From NCBI GenBank assembly GCA_026417175.1, contig JAOADT010000021.1:1-35720 (forward strand): DNA of 35,720 nucleotides, in the 5' to 3' direction. The position numbers were made by a program, and so were the translations under genes. The notes under the pieces are model-generated. The model did no database searches. It was given only the letters and a program-made list of their open reading frames with translations, and was not told where the DNA came from. Origin of the DNA: Deltaproteobacteria bacterium (GTDB taxonomy: Bacteria > Desulfobacterota > Syntrophorhabdia > Syntrophorhabdales > JANXAF01). Each line of letters starts with the position of its first letter. Position 1 is the first letter of the stretch. Positions 815 through 18,916 of the stretch are shown here, piece after piece.

Positions 815-2149
815 TTAAATTTCTCTTACCTGTACATTTCCTGGAGAACTTTCGATGGATTCTGCTATCTTTCCCAGAAAAAAAAGGACTCGATCAACCT
901 CTTCTGAAGCGGTATCCGGTAAATAAGCATCCCCCTTTTTTTCATAGGCATCTATTACTGTTTTCAGCGTGAGTCCTTCGATTGGTCTTGCGGGTTGAAA
1001 GGCAGGTTGTTCCTTTACTCCTTTTGAAACTTCAACCACCAGACCAGCCTCTATCAGTTCATTTAAAAGTTGGGAAACAAGACGGACCGGGATTTTCAGC
1101 ATATTCGAGATTTCTTTCACATTCAATGGGTTCTCCGCATGAGCAAACCGCAGAGCTATAAGACGAAAGATTCTGAGTACAAGCACCTTCTTTGAAGATT
1201 GGCTTATTCGCGAGTAATCTGGGTGAAAGCCAAAAGTCTCATAATGTTCATTTGCATGAGCTATCTCTGCACCAAAAAGGATAATCATCCAGGCCGCTTG
1301 AAGCCAAATGAGAAAAAGGGGTAAGGCCGCAAAACTTCCGTATATCGCTCCGAACTTCGTGACCCCAATTTGAAACTTGATATACAACCATTGAACAATC
1401 TGAAATACCGTTCCTGCCGCAAATGCACCGAGAATACCTGAACGTACAGGCACTTTCGTATTTGGTAAAACTATGTAAACGAGAGTCAAAAGGGTCCACA
1501 TGGACACATAAGGCAGGATGTTCAAAAGAATAAGGAAAAAATAACCAAAGAAACCGAGTGCGGCAATTTTATTCATAACCGCCTTGAGGTGGCTTGCCAC
1601 AAGCACCGTTGCACTGCTTGAAACGACAAAAAGGATAGGAGCAAAAACTATCATTGTGATGTAATCAGTAAATTTTTGAGTGAGGCTCCTTGTTCTTCGT
1701 ACATCCCAAATTTCGTTTAGGGACTCTTCGATCTTCCCCAATATGGAAATAACCGTCCAGAAAAGAACTAAAACACCAACTCCTGCAACAATTCCACCTT
1801 TTACATGTTCAAGCATAGATCTCGAAAAAGCAAGCAGCTGATTTGTAACATCCGCACTCCAGTTCCCTTTAGCAGCAATCTGAAGAATATGTTTTTCGAT
1901 TATTTTCTCCAGCCCAAAACCCTTCGCAATTCCAAAGGCGACTGCCATCAGTGGGACAATATTCAGTAAAGAGTAGTAAGTGAGCATCGAGGCATTTTTC
2001 TGACAATCGTCTTTCCAAAAGCCATACCCGGCCAAAAACAATACCCGTAGATATCTTAGGGGGACAGCCTTCCACTTAGGCAGGTCTTTTATGTGGATCT
2101 CCCATATTCCCCTCTGAATAAAACCAAAAATTTTAGAAAATATTGTCAT
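815..2149 (-). CDS. YihY/BrkB-family (UPF0761) inner-membrane protein with C-terminal winged-helix-like domain
   Basis: Polytopic membrane protein of 444 residues. The YihY/BrkB domain spans roughly residues 30-300 with about six hydrophobic segments. Family-typical stretches are NASMLTYYSLLNIVPLMAVAF near the N-terminus (fixed part ASMLTYYSLL), WTVISILGKIEESLNEIWDV, and YGSFAALPLFLIWLQAAW before the last helix. Residues about 330-400 form a soluble tail, LNVKEISNMLKIPVRLVSQL, that reads like a winged helix of the Rrf2 type. Such tails are found in longer members of this family. The molecular role of the family is not settled; the old ribonuclease BN name was an error. The gene follows mscL by 10 nt, so the two are probably co-transcribed. 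The start is ATG with only a weak ribosome-binding site, consistent with coupling to mscL. Confidence 0.88.
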   Translation of the reverse strand: MTIFSKIFGFIQRGIWEIHIKDLPKWKAVPLRYLRVLFLAGYGFWKDDCQKNASMLTYYSLLNIVPLMAVAFGIAKGFGLEKIIEKHILQIAAKGNWSADVTNQLLAFSRSMLEHVKGGIVAGVGVLVLFWTVISILGKIEESLNEIWDVRRTRSLTQKFTDYITMIVFAPILFVVSSSATVLVASHLKAVMNKIAALGFFGYFFLILLNILPYVSMWTLLTLVYIVLPNTKVPVRSGILGAFAAGTVFQIVQWLYIKFQIGVTKFGAIYGSFAALPLFLIWLQAAWMIILFGAEIAHANEHYETFGFHPDYSRISQSSKKVLVLRIFRLIALRFAHAENPLNVKEISNMLKIPVRLVSQLLNELIEAGLVVEVSKGVKEQPAFQPARPIEGLTLKTVIDAYEKKGDAYLPDTASEEVDRVLFFLGKIAESIESSPGNVQVREI

Positions 2150-2159
2150 TTTTTGCGGA

Positions 2160-2609
2160 TCATCCTAAGTCCGAAGTGCAGTTGGGACAGCGCACAGCCT
2201 TAACAGGTATTACAGAGAAGCAATAAATGCATTCTTTTGTTGTCGGAACCAAAGGAGGTACCTCTTGCTGGCGCCTTAATTTATTTACTCCTTTTACTAG
2301 GATAAACACGGAAAAAGCGACAATCACGAAGCTAACAATAGTGTTGATAAAGTATCCATAGTTGATGGTAACAGCACCGGAAGCCTTAGCCTGGGCAAGG
2401 GAGATATATGGACCCGGAACATTTCCTTCCTTAATTACAAGAAAGAGATTTGAAAAATCAATGTTTCCCAACACATATCCAATGGGCGGCATAATCACAT
2501 CATTAACTAACGAGTTAACTATACCTCCAAAAGAAGCCCCTAAAATAATCCCGACAGCCATATCTAGGACATTACCACGCATTGCGAATTCTTTGAATTC
2601 CTTTAGCAT
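2160..2609 (-). CDS. mscL: Large-conductance mechanosensitive channel MscL with a C-terminal zinc-ribbon-like tail
   Basis: MscL opens under membrane tension to release solutes during hypo-osmotic shock. The 149-residue product begins FKEFAMRGNVLDMAVGIILG, the conserved N-terminal helix and TM1, followed by NDVIMPPIGYVLG and a periplasmic loop. TM2 is at about residues 88-106 (YFINTIVSFVIVAFSVFILVK). Instead of the usual short charged helix, the C-terminus carries two CxxC pairs (C127/C130 and C141/C144), a zinc-ribbon pattern. Ordinary MscL is about 130-140 residues, so the tail accounts for the extra length. A GGGAGG ribosome-binding site stands 9 nt before the ATG. The stop of the broken DUF748 gene lies 23 nt upstream. 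Confidence 0.95.
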   Translation of the reverse strand: MLKEFKEFAMRGNVLDMAVGIILGASFGGIVNSLVNDVIMPPIGYVLGNIDFSNLFLVIKEGNVPGPYISLAQAKASGAVTINYGYFINTIVSFVIVAFSVFILVKGVNKLRRQQEVPPLVPTTKECIYCFSVIPVKAVRCPNCTSDLG

Positions 2610-2632: not shown

Positions 2633-5600
2633 TTATTTTATTTTAAATTCAACCCGGCTATCTTTTACATTTTCTTTTCTGTCCGGTGAAAGGCTCTTGG
2701 GTTCCACAAGGAAGATCCTTTCAGGCTCTATTTCTTTTGCTTTGAGGAGTATGTCTTTTACTTTTTGGGCACGCATAAAAGCGAGCGTTCTCAAATCACC
2801 CTCTTTCACCTCTATGTGGTTAAGTATGAGTCTTTCCATTTCAGGATCTGGAAGATTTTTTGTCATGCCAACTAGGTTCCGAGGTTTTGGAAATTTTTCC
2901 TGTTTGTATGCCATCTTTAAGTACTTAGAATACTCTGCAGGATCAATTTTTATTTCATCTATCGATGGTGGGGTCTGCCCTTTTTTAACCATTTCTTTAA
3001 TCTTTTGAGCCTTCAACTTTTTAAGCAAGATTTCTCTCTTCAATGCTTCTCGATCCTTTTCCAAATCCACATGTCCCTGTATCTCCAGTCTGACTCCAGG
3101 TCTTTCTTGAAGTGCTTTCGCTAGGTTTTCAACCTTCTTAAAATTGGTCTCATCAAGGATAAGAGTTCCTTCTTCGAACTCTACATAACTTAGCTCCTCT
3201 CCTCCACCAAATAACGCACCGAGAAGGGCAAAAGGAGATGTCGCCGCTTTTGTGACAAGGTTGATTACCACCTGAAGTATAATTCTTAAGATACTGAATT
3301 TGGGGTCATCAATAGTTCCGCGCACCGGGATATCTAGTTTTATCACCCCATTTCGATCCTTAAGGAGCGCAATTGCGAGCCTTACGGGTAATTTTGTTGC
3401 ATGAGAACTTTCTACTTTGTCACCAAACGTAAGTTGATCCAAAAAAATTCGATTTTCCGAATCAAGTTTTCTTTTTTCTATGAGATACTCCAGATCTAAG
3501 GAAAGTTTCCCTTTTTGGATTGTTTAGCCTACATATTTCCCAGAGTACGGACTCATAGAACTAAGATCCATATCCTTGAACCTTACCTTCACGTCAATAA
3601 AAAGATCTTCTCTTAAGGGATTAATCTTTCCGACAATTTCGAGCGGTGCATATCCGTCAAGCTTTCCATGAAACTCAAGATCAGCCATCGCCGATTCTTC
3701 TGACGATAAACCGGACGCCTGTCCCTGAATCTCAACTAGATTCGCAAAATATGGAGGCTCCAAAGACCTATCAGAGAACTCAATCTTTCCGTTCCGGAGA
3801 ATAATGGTCCCAATTTGGATCTGTTTCCCAAAAGGCTTCAAACCTATTTCTTTTTCTTTTACCTTTTGAGAAGGTATTTTAGATCTGTCTATATTTACTC
3901 CGGGTTTTTCCTGAACGATTATATCACGAATGTTGAGCCTGCCCTCTGGATAAAGAAGAATTTTGGCGTAGAAATCAGAAAGGGATATCTCTTTGACGCG
4001 AATAGTAAGAGGCTCAATATCAAATACTAAACCCTCTAAACTTAGCAAACCACACTTTAAGAGTTCCTCTCCAGTCTCCTTTTCAGTTGAGGCAAATTGA
4101 ATGATAGAAAGGTCTCCCTTAAACGCTATCTTTGTCTCTTTCGTTTCAGAAAGGGTCAAAGAGAGATCTCCGTTAGTTGAGAAAATACCTTTAGTAATCT
4201 GGATCCTCAATTTGTCTGTGATGTACGGCTGGAATGCTGAAATTGGGATTTCTTTTAATTCTATCTTAAGCTTCGCTTGAAAGGGTTCAATAACTACATT
4301 TCCAGCTGCTTTGAACCTCCCCTTTTTGTTGAGTAAAAAGGAGAGAGCAAGATTTCCCTTGCTATTTTTTTCTGTGGAGAGATTTTGGCTTCTTACGCTA
4401 ATCTCATCAATTAAAAGATGAGCTGAATCTTTGGGTAGCCGGTCATCTAACTCAACCCGGTATCGTTCAATATTTACATCCCGAATCAAAATCAACCATG
4501 GTTTTTCTAATTTTTTGTTTTCTCCTTTATCTTTCGTCTCTTTGAAAATGTCATTCTGCTGAACTAGCTCGAGAAAATTTACTGAGCCGTCCTTGTGACG
4601 AACTACCCTGAGTATCCCTCTATCCGTGTGGATCATTCCAATCTTTAGCTCTTTTTTTGATAGGTGAAGATTGGTGTCCTTGATAGTGAGAACTGGGATT
4701 TTAACAATTTCTTCCTCCTTGTCCTTTACCTTAAGTCGTAGATCTGTCAAAGATAAATCAAGCTTTGATACAGAAATGTCCGACTGGCCACCTTTTTGAA
4801 AATACCGATAGGATGTGGAAATGTTCAGTTGTCCTCCATCCACGTTGCATAGAATGAAATCTTCATAATATGGAGAATACTTTTTCAACCTGACCGCCTT
4901 TAGTTCAAGGTTTCCTTGAATACCTAGTGGTTGTACCGAAAACTCGCCTGAGATATGCATTTCTTCATTGGACTCGGTCTTGGCTTTTAGAGCGTATATC
5001 GATTTCCCCCCTTCCTTATTCGTAAAGCTCTCTACTGTTAAATTCAACGGTGAAATAGTAGTTCTAAAAAACTTATCCCTTAAAAAATCCGAAACATAAA
5101 TTTTTCCGTCCGTGATTTGTATTTGATCAATGTCAAGACTAATAGATTTCCCTTTTTCTTCAGAATCACCAGTTGAATTCCTGCTATTTTCCGTAAACGA
5201 AAAGGTGTCTACAAAATTTATTTTCCCATCCTTTCTTCGCATGATAGTTATTTCCGGAGATTGGACAAGTATTCGAGAAACATGAAATTTTTTGATTAAG
5301 GGCTCCGAGGAATCCAAAATGACATTTAAATATGGCATCCTTAATAGGGGTGTACCGTCCAATTCGTCAACAGAGACTTTCCACAACGAAAGATCTCCAT
5401 TCACGCTCAAAGAGGGGGGTTGGTTTTTTGGTTGGATAAATCTAATCTTAAGTGACATATCCAAAACAGCTGAAGGTATCTTAAATTTTATCTTGACCGG
5501 AACATAAGGAATATATTGATGTAGACTTAGTTCTTTCGCATTGATCTCAAAATTGGTTTCCTGACTGTCATGAAAGGGTTTAGTTTTTCCCTTTAGCTCA

Positions 5601-6216
5601 TAATACGTCCCGTTTATACGTGCAGAAAATTCAGGCTGGACGAACGTTTCAACATAATGGGGTATGTTTGAAATGAAGGGAATCCCTACCCGTAATTCAC
5701 GCACTGTATGTTTCGTTCTTTTAGGTTCATCCCAAAAATCGATACTACCGTCGACGATCCGTATATTGCTAAAAGAAAATAGGATATCTCTTTTGCTTTT
5801 TTTCTCGCTAGGATACCTTTCTTTATCTTCAAGAAGATCTGAAAAATTAAAAGTCAGATCAGACCTTCTTTTTATGGTGAGATGAGGCCTGATGATTCTA
5901 ATTTCTTTGAGAATGAGTGCTCGGCGAAGGACGGAAATACTCTCAAGATTCAAAAAGAGTTCGTTTAAAGAAAGGAATAATTCTTCTTTTGATATTTCTT
6001 CCCTCTCTTTAACCGTAAGCCCATCGCCGTAAGAGAAAGCACATATGGGTTTACTTTAATTTTTCTGATGCTTACTTCCCTGTTTAGGGCACGAGAAAGT
6101 TCCTTAGTTAAGACTGACTTGAGAATTGGCGGTAAAATGAAGAAACCGAGCACAGAAAAGAGAGCAATAAAAAGAAGGACAGAAATGAGAATCTTTTGGA
6201 AAAGCGATTTATTCAT
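2633..6216 (-). pseudogene. Large DUF748/AsmA-like protein gene, interrupted by one frameshift and one in-frame stop
   Basis: One gene of about 1,194 codons is broken into three open segments. It begins at 6216 with an ATG and a signal-anchor helix (ILISVLLFIALFSVLGFFIL). It continues through long beta-rich AsmA/DUF748 repeats (INFVD, VNFLELV and LNIRDI motifs) and ends at 2633 with an OmpA-like tail. Lesion 1: the frame is lost at the G-tract 6020-6022 (minus strand ATGGGC). Adding one G restores GLTVKEREEISKEELFLSL, the normal family sequence, where the first frame instead ends at 5965. Lesion 2: a TAA at 3524-3526 sits between GKYVG and TIQKGKLSLDLEYLIEKRKL. Reading stays in the same frame across it, and family members have Tyr there as I remember them. 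TTG codons at 5953 and 3442 would be the only internal starts and look accidental. Such proteins are thought to work in envelope lipid or protein traffic. The rest of the gene is undamaged, so inactivation is recent, or these are sequencing errors. Confidence 0.85.
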
Positions 6217-6246
6217 GAGCGCACCTCTTTTTTACAAAAACCTTCT

Positions 6247-6720
6247 TTAGCAAATGAGTAACCCCGGGCTAAATCTTTTCTTAACCCTTTTCTCTTCCTC
6301 TTCCAGAACGTAAAAAAGTCCAACCAAGGCTTTGTTCACCACATACTGATCTAAGTCATAATCCTATTTTTTCAAAAGAAATTAACAAAAAGTGACCCAC
6401 CAACCCTTTATATCGTCTGGCTACTCCCATCTCACCTATGGACCTTTTAACAACGGGTTTAAATACCTCCTCCGGTTTTTCCCACGTATTATTTTTAAAA
6501 TAACCTCTTGCCTCGATCTCACAACCGAATTCTCTGTTCCTACTTTTAAAGTTTATTTTAGTCCCTCAGTTGTTTTTCGGTCGCTTGTGATTTTTCCCTG
6601 AGTTAGCTTGAGCTCCTTACAAATTTGATCCAGCTCGTCACCTATCTTCCAAAAACTTAGTAAGAAAGAGAAAATAGAAAAATTGAAGTAAGACCTCTTG
6701 GGTCGACTCTTATGTCCTTT
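6247..6720 (-). pseudogene. Decayed DUF4197 protein gene
   Basis: No complete frame exists, but pieces of a DUF4197 protein can be read in order on the minus strand. A hydrophobic, signal-like stretch (FNFSIFSFLLSF) near 6685-6650 is followed by DELDQICKELKLTQGKIT, then GLK-stop-TLKVGTENSV. The stop is TAA at 6553-6555, where the family has an acidic residue. A jump follows to GYFKNNTWEKPEEVFKPVV and KRSIGEMGVARRYKGLV (6510-6385). A further frame change near 6358 leads to YDLDQYVVNKALVGLFYVLE (6360-6301), ending at a TAA at 6247-6249. About 100 residues of the family's middle are absent, so there is an internal deletion besides the nonsense and frameshift lesions. DUF4197 proteins are secreted and of unknown role. 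The remnant lies directly upstream of the broken DUF748 gene, with the same orientation. The family match is from memory. Confidence 0.7.
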
Positions 6721-7208
6721 TAATCGTTTTACAACTAGTTCTGAAATAAAAAGTACCCCCCGAAAAGTTTGCCCTAGTGCCTCGATCCTTCTGTCCTCAA
6801 TGTGCGATACACAGTTATTCCCAATTATAAAATTTTAATTTTAGCATTGCAATCCTTTTGTCTTATGTACCAGAAGCAAGGACAAAATCTAGTATGAAGA
6901 CTGCGCACTAAGAAAACAATTATGTGCTAAACAGTATATGCGATCTGGTTCTTTATTTTTCTTTGTGAGATCTAATTTCAACTCTATTGGCCAATTTAAG
7001 ATTAAAGATTAGTCCGGATTTTTCACACCAATGTTGTCACGCATAAAGTATTATCTAGGCCAAAATTTACTTTACTTTCTATTACAAGGAAGGCCCAGCG
7101 GAAAGTGCGAAAAGAAGAAAGGTTAAGTCTTTACCGAAACGGTTGAATATTTCAGTAGGATACGCTTCATCCACTTTTTCATATTAGTTCGAGACGGGCA
7201 AAAAATTC
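6721..7208. other. Intergenic region, nothing recognised
   Basis: AT-rich sequence between the DUF4197 remnant and the promoter of the NlpC/P60 gene. No frame longer than a few dozen codons, no tRNA-like fold and no inverted repeat stood out. It may include the lost promoter and leader of the decayed gene. Confidence 0.5.
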
Positions 7209-7238
7209 TTGACACAGGTTTTTCCATTTTGGTAAAAA
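7209..7238 (+). promoter_or_regulatory. Candidate sigma70 promoter (extended -10) for the LysM-NlpC/P60 gene
   Basis: The perfect -35 TTGACA at 7209-7214 is followed after 18 nt by TAAAAA at 7233-7238. The -10 is preceded by TGG, which gives an extended -10 element. The predicted start site is near 7245, leaving a short leader that contains the AAGGGG ribosome-binding site. Confidence 0.55.
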
Positions 7239-7260
7239 GTCATCCAAAAAGGGGTTGGTA

Positions 7261-8106
7261 GTGAAAGTAATTTCCTTCTTTTTGAGCCTTATATTCATTA
7301 TCTCATTTTCATTTGTAGTGCATGCTGAACAAAAAAACAATAATTTACGGAAGGCTAGCGCGCAGGTTACAAAGAAAAAGGTTACCAGTTCTGTGCATCA
7401 AACAAAAAAATCAGTCACTTTGACAGCCCAGGATAACATTTATGAGGAAAATGAATCAACGTTTATTAGACATCGGGTAAAGAGAGGTGAAACACTCGCT
7501 GAAATAGCCCGGATGTACGGGGTAAGCATAAGGGAAATTAAAAGTGTAAATAGACTTAAGACGCAAACGCTTTCACCAGGAAAGATACTAGTTATTCCTC
7601 AGAGAGAAGAAGAGGAAGAGGAGGAAATAGTTGAAGTTGGCGAAAAATCATTCGGAAAATGGAAAGACCCAGATGAAAGATACAGACTTGTAAAAGTTGC
7701 AAAAAGCTTCGAGGGTGCTCCCTACAAGCTGGGTGGCAGCACCGTAAGAGGTCTTGATTGCTCTGCGTTCGTTAAGAAGATTTTTGAAATTTTTGATGTA
7801 AATTTACCAAGGACCGCTAAGGAGCAGTATAGAGTAGGAAAGAAAATAGAAAAGGAAGAGCTTACCATAGGGGATCTTGTTTTTTTTAAGACAAGACCTG
7901 GTAGGAATTATCCAACCCATGTGGGAATTTATATAGGAAACGGAACCTTTATCCATGCGTCCTCTCATCACAAAAGAGGAGTAAGAGTAGATAGTCTAGA
8001 TTCTCCTTTTTATAAAAGAACATATGTGGGAGCAGTAAGAATAAAGGAACTACCTGACGATTTAGCAGAGAAGAAAGATAGAATCTCGTCAGAAAGTAAC
8101 TCGTAA
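7261..8106 (+). CDS. Secreted LysM-NlpC/P60 peptidoglycan hydrolase
   Basis: A 281-residue exported cell-wall enzyme, predicted to cleave peptide cross-bridges (gamma-D-Glu-diamino acid type) in peptidoglycan. Residues 1-22 are a signal peptide (FFLSLIFIISFSFVVHA). A LysM domain at 70-113 (HRVKRGETLAEIARMYGVSI, ending LSPGKILVIP) binds the glycan. An acidic linker of repeated Glu follows at 116-123. The NlpC/P60 domain covers about 142-262. Its catalytic Cys167 lies in GLDCSAF, with His220 in HVGIYIG and His232 in FIHASS. The GTG at 7261 is chosen because AAGGGG ends 6 nt before it; a TTG two codons upstream has no such spacing. The membrane-protein gene follows after 4 nt, so the two are probably one transcript. 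Confidence 0.93.
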   Translation: MKVISFFLSLIFIISFSFVVHAEQKNNNLRKASAQVTKKKVTSSVHQTKKSVTLTAQDNIYEENESTFIRHRVKRGETLAEIARMYGVSIREIKSVNRLKTQTLSPGKILVIPQREEEEEEEIVEVGEKSFGKWKDPDERYRLVKVAKSFEGAPYKLGGSTVRGLDCSAFVKKIFEIFDVNLPRTAKEQYRVGKKIEKEELTIGDLVFFKTRPGRNYPTHVGIYIGNGTFIHASSHHKRGVRVDSLDSPFYKRTYVGAVRIKELPDDLAEKKDRISSESNS

Positions 8107-17307: not shown

Positions 17308-18368
17308 GCCTCCTCCGTGTAGGTTCTTAATCTTCTCAGCTTGAATATTAGAAAGACTTCTTTTTGTGGATGGAGATTCAATTCCCGAAAAGTCTCTCTA
17401 GGCAGTTCGACGACAAGAATATGGTCACCAACTCTCACTTTCATGTTAATTATCGAAGAAAGATCCTCTATTTCGAGAATGGTACCTTTTACCCTGTTTA
17501 CCTCTGGTCCGGGAGGCTTATCAACTGATACGTAAATGTCTCTCGAAGAAAGGGCAATTTTCTTTATGTTATTATTTTCTTGGGGCACGAGTAGTCTTAT
17601 CCCGCCTAAAGAAACTTCGCAAAGACCAGATCCAATAGGTCTAACGTGATCCACATCTAATATATTTGGGACACCCACAAATTTAGAAACCACACCGCTT
17701 TTTGGAAAGAAGAATATCTCGTGGGGGGAGCCTACTTGCTCAACTCTTCCAGAGTTTATAATGGCGATTTTTACAGCTAGTTCTTCCGCTTCGCCAAGAT
17801 TGTGTGTAACGTGGATTGTGGTTAATCCAAGCTCCTTATGGAGCCGTTTCAATTCAACCCTAAAGATTTTAGAAGTTGAAATATCCAGATTACTAAGTGG
17901 CTCATCAAGAAGAAGCAAGTCAGGTGCTAAAGCAAGCGCCCGTGCTATCGCGACTTTCTGTTTCTCACCGCCTGATAATGTTCTAATATCTCTATTTAAA
18001 AGATGTTCGATTCCTAAAATCTCAGATAAAAATCTCACCTTTTTCTTTCTCTCTCCATCGGAATACTTCCTCATTCTAAGACCAAATTCGATATTTTTTT
18101 GCACATCCAAAAATGGAAAGAGCACGCAGTCCTGTGGCACATACCCAACGTTTCTGTGCTCGGGTGGAACATTGGTTATATCCTTACCACCAAGGAGTAT
18201 AGAACCTTTTTTTATTTTCCTTAGTCCTGCAATAGCTTCTAAAAGGACCGTTTTTCCAGAACCGTTCGGACCCAAAATGACAAAGTAATCGTGTTTTTTT
18301 ACTTCAAGGTTGATCCCTCCCAGGGAAAAATTACCTACCTCCACAATAAGATCTTTCACTTCTAACAC
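17304..18368 (-). CDS. ABC importer ATPase with C-terminal TOBE-like domain
   Basis: A 354-residue ATPase that powers the adjacent permease. Walker A is GPNGSGKTVLLEAIAG, the Q-loop lies in GYVPQDCVLFPFLDV, the signature is LSGGEKQKVAIARALA, Walker B is LLLLDEPLSNLD, and the switch His is in IHVTHNLGEAEELA. Residues about 230-354 form a TOBE-like tail (FVGVPNILDVDHV, AGTILEIEDLSS-type strands), as in ModC, CysA and PotA. TauB/SsuB ATPases, the usual partners of this permease class, are about 250 residues and lack it. A TOBE tail often means regulation by the cargo. The start is GTG at 18368 with GGAG 5 nt upstream. A perfect sigma70 promoter precedes it. Confidence 0.92.
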   Translation of the reverse strand: MLEVKDLIVEVGNFSLGGINLEVKKHDYFVILGPNGSGKTVLLEAIAGLRKIKKGSILLGGKDITNVPPEHRNVGYVPQDCVLFPFLDVQKNIEFGLRMRKYSDGERKKKVRFLSEILGIEHLLNRDIRTLSGGEKQKVAIARALALAPDLLLLDEPLSNLDISTSKIFRVELKRLHKELGLTTIHVTHNLGEAEELAVKIAIINSGRVEQVGSPHEIFFFPKSGVVSKFVGVPNILDVDHVRPIGSGLCEVSLGGIRLLVPQENNNIKKIALSSRDIYVSVDKPPGPEVNRVKGTILEIEDLSSIINMKVRVGDHILVVELPRETFRELNLHPQKEVFLIFKLRRLRTYTEEA

Positions 18369-18392
18369 TTATACTCCAGTAAATCTTGTGTA

Positions 18393-18420
18393 AGCGTTGT
18401 AGCCTATTATATATAACGCT
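18393..18420. promoter_or_regulatory. Dyad over the -10 box, candidate repressor operator
   Basis: AGCGTT (18393-18398) and AACGCT (18415-18420) form a perfect inverted repeat with a 16-nt spacer that contains the TATAAT box. The outer bases, spacing and one inner arm (CGTTATAT) recall, from memory, the molybdate-responsive ModE operator. A second dyad, AAGAGCA (18433-18439) with TGCTCTT (18449-18455), touches the -35. No regulator gene is adjacent. Confidence 0.45.
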
Positions 18421-18434
18421 CGAATTTATGTCAA
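18406..18434 (-). promoter_or_regulatory. Perfect sigma70 promoter of the ABC ATPase operon
   Basis: On the minus strand TTGACA (18429-18434) and TATAAT (18406-18411) are spaced exactly 17 nt, a full consensus match. The predicted start site is near 18399, about 30 nt before the GTG. A promoter this strong usually needs a repressor, which fits the dyads around it. Confidence 0.8.
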
Positions 18435-18916
18435 GAGCAAGTCAATCATGCTCTTACGTCAATTACCCATTGAAACCAACAATCACATTAGGGTGGTGTT
18501 CTATACTACACTCTCAAGGTTGGTATTTTAGGATGGTGAAGACTGAAGTATGAATTGATGGGCTGTGTTACAAGAAAAAAGATTTGACTAGAACCATTGT
18601 TTTGGAATTTTACGTTGGGTTATAAATGGATAAGCCAAAATTCATTGAAAAGAATTTTTCTAGCCTTGTAAATACATGGTTAAATGAGGAAATCATAGAA
18701 ACATGACTCATTCATAAAAAGTCACCAAAACCTTAAAAGGTCAAATTTATTAGAGGTAAACGAGAGGCTTAAAAAATGGCCGTATTGTAACTAAACTTTG
18801 AACGAGAAACTGACATCGATTTACTTCGGGAATCTGAAAAATTTAAGAACTGGAGATCAACTTTTTACTCCAATTAGAAAACCACATATATCTGATTTTT
18901 TGAACGTAACGCAACC
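18435..18916. other. Intergenic region between two importer operons
   Basis: About 480 nt with no convincing gene on either strand. It contains the AAGAGCA/TGCTCTT dyad (18433-18455) next to the -35 of the downstream operon; this may be an operator or a weak terminator. A short plus-strand frame starting near 18626 reads MDKPKFIEKNFSSLVNTWLN and then stops. It resembles nothing I know. Confidence 0.4.

Follow-up and report, generated by a model that had tools for sequence, protein, structure and literature searches.

Probable recent inactivation of a large DUF748/AsmA-like gene in an uncultured Syntrophorhabdales genome

The window, the whole 35,720-nucleotide stretch of DNA that was analysed, makes up one entire contig (G000:C13) among the 97 of G000, a draft genome of 2.15 Mb. 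Its minus strand carries, from position 6216 to position 2633, a single 1,194-codon gene of the DUF748 (AsmA-like) family, which is probably a recently inactivated pseudogene. The gene is interrupted by a single-base frame break and by an in-frame TAA, both of which we infer to be real changes in the DNA, and the case looks like ordinary gene decay rather than a special code or a switch. An earlier note on this sequence had described a single DUF748/AsmA-like gene with two lesions, and its coordinates and codon count are right. The parts of the gene and its downstream neighbours are as follows.

5965..6216, minus strand: 5' piece of the DUF748 gene, with the ATG and an N-terminal hydrophobic anchor (PF05359 profile positions 12–81, 62.7 bits)
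6019..6024, minus strand: single-base frame break, the frame changing between neighbouring family columns
3527..6019, minus strand: middle piece of 831 codons (three PF05359 stretches, 597.2 bits; PF05170 (AsmA), 50.2 bits)
3524..3526, minus strand: in-frame TAA in place of the family Tyr codon (all 28 unmasked homolog rows have Tyr; a 29th is masked)
2633..3523, minus strand: C-terminal piece to the native TAA (PF05359 profile positions 769–1037, 375 bits; weak OmpA-like stretch)
2160..2609, minus strand: mscL, intact, downstream neighbour (PF01741; same order in the counterpart genome G041)
815..2149, minus strand: gene for a BrkB/YihY-type membrane protein, intact, downstream neighbour (PF03631)

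The frame that opens at the ATG at 6216 has 83 codons, the first 66 of which are family-like and end in ...LSLTAMG, with 17 out-of-frame codons following before a stop. The gene body resumes in a different frame at 6019 and runs for 831 codons to the TAA at 3524–3526, after which 295 further codons lead to a second TAA, the end of the gene. The tally is thus 66, 831, 1 (the stop) and 296 codons, the last number including the native final stop. Because no continuous open frame spans the gene, which is broken at approximately 6020 and again at 3524–3526, it is classed as a broken member of DUF748 and not as a working one.

All three pieces exceed the PF05359 gathering score of 50 bits and together match nearly the whole profile in register, and the middle piece also scores above the cut-off of PF05170, in keeping with the AsmA-like clan to which DUF748 belongs. 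The OmpA match of the C-terminal piece (23.8 bits) lies under its cut-off. The best PF05359 stretch of the middle piece ends at profile position 766 and that of the C-terminal piece begins at 769; since the two pieces abut in register, the TAA amounts to the replacement of a single residue. The masked row in that alignment column is L035. The claim that the frame is the same on both sides of the TAA is thereby borne out. The frame break falls exactly between adjacent family columns; the homologs have no residue between these columns, and the rows that reach the site continue straight through it. As read from the sequence, one base is absent here. The earlier note had specified a missing G at 6020–6022; the loss of one base holds, and its identity is left unspecified by the sequence alone. 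Apart from its two lesions, the gene differs from the DUF748 family in that a repeat stretch of the N-terminal part (profile approximately 140–338) is present twice, at 4541–5989. This stretch is also doubled in G007, G009 and G010 (frames of 1,207–1,222 codons) and is single in shorter homologs of roughly 1,000 codons.

Searches covered 46 genomes of the order, G000 included, and a strong DUF748 match was defined by E ≤ 1e-60. Such a match is present in 33 of the 46 genomes (32 of 45 without G000). No internal stop was found in the listed matches of the 32 other genomes, several of whose genes end at contig ends, with that of G021 interrupted by a masked stretch. The disabling lesions of the window are absent from the intact homologs. 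The 13 genomes without a strong match, some of which are incomplete bins, include G001 and G002, the two same-family genomes of a comparison set that contains none of the same genus. No DUF748 match was detected in G001 at E ≤ 0.001, and G002 has only a short DUF748 protein, the long gene being absent. Relics of the gene were sought in L152:1–2700, upstream of the G001 counterpart of nlpC, and in L083, with no significant match (best E, 0.92).

The best match beyond the order set, from a collection of genome contigs, is in G041 (CALIBK010000099.1), with 56% identity over the middle piece. The C-terminal part of the G041 gene, 77% identical, lies on a separate contig of the same genome and is followed by mscL and brkB, and the order DUF748–mscL–brkB is common to both genomes. 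The G041 gene has itself been disabled at three places: its frame breaks at codon 57/58, a TAA interrupts it at approximately codon 475 and, at approximately codon 916, a multi-copy element with inverted ends has been inserted, with TTATT on each side. G041 has Tyr at the site of the window's TAA and the window has a sense codon at the TAA of G041; because each gene is intact where the other has its TAA, the lesions of the two are independent.

The window gene is otherwise well preserved. In 26 intact homologs (a set that excludes the incomplete or masked rows L033, L034 and L035), 124 columns show no variation; of these the window gene keeps 116 and the G041 gene 118. Four of the eight departures in the window gene recur in G041, and a fifth is the TAA itself. 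At the three codon positions, the window and G041 differ by 0.156, 0.071 and 0.560 in the C-terminal piece and by 0.203, 0.081 and 0.608 in the intact mscL. Retention of the invariant columns, together with coding-type differences resembling those of mscL, points to purifying selection until recently, and the good preservation of the remaining coding sequence indicates that inactivation was recent. It weighs somewhat against this reading that two lesions without other decay require only a short time to have passed since the gene was lost.

A survey of comparable lesions covered 39% of the G000 genome (835,720 bases), with comparison ORFs from samples of G001, G002 and G041; only genes with at least 70% query cover and matches of at least 35% identity were retained. 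Eight of the 433 genes assessed were flagged, including the window gene, which was flagged through its TAA alone, the G041 query used stopping short of the frame break. The other seven comprise three pseudogenes with several lesions each, one gene in which a TGA stands in place of Cys, two with a stop in an N-terminal stretch that matches poorly, and one whose N-terminal stretch is ambiguous. The more clearly defined among them are listed here.

L053:13645–14424 and 17731–18736: an enoyl-CoA-hydratase-like pseudogene with two stops and a DctP-like pseudogene with stops and a frame change
L124:10605–12134: a pseudogene with eight stops, the intact homolog of which has no Pfam match
L136:14929–15516: an in-frame TGA where the homolog has Cys, in the context FVCPTE

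The two L053 pseudogenes are near each other. The TGA in L136, in a frame that we take to be a peroxiredoxin, probably specifies selenocysteine. In L054 the stop lies directly upstream of the listed start, in L130 it falls within the poorly matching N-terminal stretch, and in L142 the N-terminal stretch is ambiguous. No clear isolated frame break was seen among the 432 other assessed genes, in a survey that recovered 345 of 403 simulated single deletions. By our arithmetic (zero in approximately 438 kb), the approximate 95% upper bound is 0.03 frame-break errors per gene of such length.

These results bear on whether the gene is really intact and has only been misread, through a mistake of assembly or base calling in a draft metagenome bin. 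The draft state of the genome, the good conservation of the coding sequence apart from the two lesions, as sequence error would look, and the position of one lesion, an indel beside a short homopolymer, are all compatible with such an error. The other lesion, however, is a substitution, and the G041 counterpart is broken too, one of its lesions being an element insertion that base-calling error cannot produce. Scattered assembly error is also made improbable by the concentration of G000 lesions in a few multi-lesion pseudogenes, and the survey yielded no clear isolated frame break in another gene, so that an error is on balance unlikely, though less so than the readings that follow. Of the options in the earlier note, recent inactivation is the best supported, by the intact single-frame relatives, the conserved remainder and the independently broken syntenic counterpart.

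Programmed recoding or phase variation, which the same note had also listed, would let some cells make the full protein by a −1 shift in the vicinity of codon 66 and by reading through the TAA. G041 likewise has a −1 break approximately nine codons away (codon 58 compared with 66) and one in-frame TAA, and a heptamer of slippery form, A AAC CCA, was noticed by eye approximately nine codons upstream of the window break. A slip at this heptamer would nevertheless replace conserved residues downstream, and the heptamer is missing in G041. Moreover, the window and G041 carry their lesions at different sites, none is common to any relative examined, and no conserved shift site was found, G041 being broken at another codon; strong matches elsewhere in the order have no internal stop. 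The TAA is a normal stop in G000, where 231 of the 567 ORFs of at least 200 residues listed for the sample terminate in it, and the G run at the break is GGG, three long, which gives little basis for phase variation. Recoding and phase variation are accordingly left without support and are highly improbable. Production of two or three functional proteins from the pieces, for example via internal starts, is the least credible reading of all: TTG-start ORFs of 809 and 269 residues do flank the TAA, but the body would be without its membrane anchor, the pieces lie in contiguous family register, and no examined relative is divided into separate genes at these points (the L035 row is masked at the TAA site), a comparison that the single-gene reading survived. 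Finally, because the −1 breaks lie so close together and cut the anchor from the body in both relatives, detachment of the anchor, or restriction of body synthesis to rare frame-shift events, could have been selected in the two instead of arising by simple decay. The chance of two frame breaks falling so near is on the order of 2% (our estimate, from approximately 18 of 1,195 positions), and we give selected detachment a very low probability.

Under the favoured reading of recent inactivation, the intact ancestor would have encoded an inner-membrane-anchored AsmA-like/DUF748 protein of approximately 1,193 residues, possibly a periplasmic β-rich bridge of the TamB/YhdP kind that carries phospholipids towards the outer membrane. 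This lipid-bridge function is suggested by kinship with TamB and AsmA, to which DUF748 is described as having profile similarity (PMC4494059). The architecture and genetics described for the E. coli AsmA-like proteins in PMC8593681, which also treats their redundancy, point the same way. According to these two sources, YhdP, TamB and YdbH of E. coli belong to the same AsmA-like group, with an N-terminal anchor and a large periplasmic part; the window gene, in contrast, matched only the DUF748 and AsmA models. An AlphaFold2 model of the 831-residue middle piece, built from a five-row alignment, was unusable (mean pLDDT of 33.5). Translation from the ATG at 6216 would now end after 83 residues, of which 66 are native (including the anchor) and 17 foreign, and a ribosome that regained the frame would still meet the TAA, with loss of the last 295 residues. 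With an early frame break, and a TAA even after frame recovery, no working product is expected. G000 retains an intact YhdP-like protein of 1,020 residues (PF13116, 87.5 bits) and a short DUF748 protein of 355 residues; no match to TamB (PF04357) was found in this genome. Loss of the gene is probably tolerated because the YhdP-like paralog remains.

As in ordinary bacterial pseudogenes, disabling lesions lie within a conserved gene, and G000 has other multi-lesion pseudogenes; the window gene is the least decayed of those seen and differs from them in having an independently broken counterpart in G041. An uncultured lineage thus appears to be losing a large AsmA-like envelope gene that is stop-free in most of its order. 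The gene is damaged independently in two genomes and was not found in two genomes of the same family, while the YhdP-like paralog stays. This modest natural example fits with AsmA-like proteins being redundant with one another. An annotation should show one pseudogene here, not three genes.

Of the 32 loci L007–L038, which have short flanks, 9 show brkB next to the DUF748 gene. Upstream of the broken gene, approximately 1 kb (6217–7254) without an ORF of at least 80 residues separates it from a divergent NlpC/P60 gene; this 1,038-base region matched only itself in a blastn search against the compared loci, and an Rfam scan of the window gave no match.

G041 provides the best gene match found and is not necessarily the genome nearest to G000. 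Reciprocal best pairs of G000 and G041 have a median identity of 36% (47 pairs from a small G041 sample that includes non-orthologs), and the corresponding medians for G001 and G002 are 71–72% (234 and 211 pairs, respectively); on L111, a conserved contig, many genes reach 54–88% identity. The block of three genes may have been transferred horizontally, or G041 may be a mixed bin. The G041 element (CCYAAATTGAGCGATT...), of roughly 200 bases, lies at L036:4475–4675 and 7503–7642 and at L103:16058–16250, and also occurs in L104, L106–L108, L110, L112, L116 and L117; many of the G041 contigs sampled carry full or partial copies, frequently at their ends. The copies upstream of and within the DUF748 gene have opposite orientations, and the sequence immediately upstream of that gene recurs on the other contig, beside the C-terminal part, as would be seen with an invertible or misjoined segment between the two copies. 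The brkB gene of G041 (L103:13673–14671) matches the window protein only from residue 112 and, judged from this alignment, looks N-terminally truncated.
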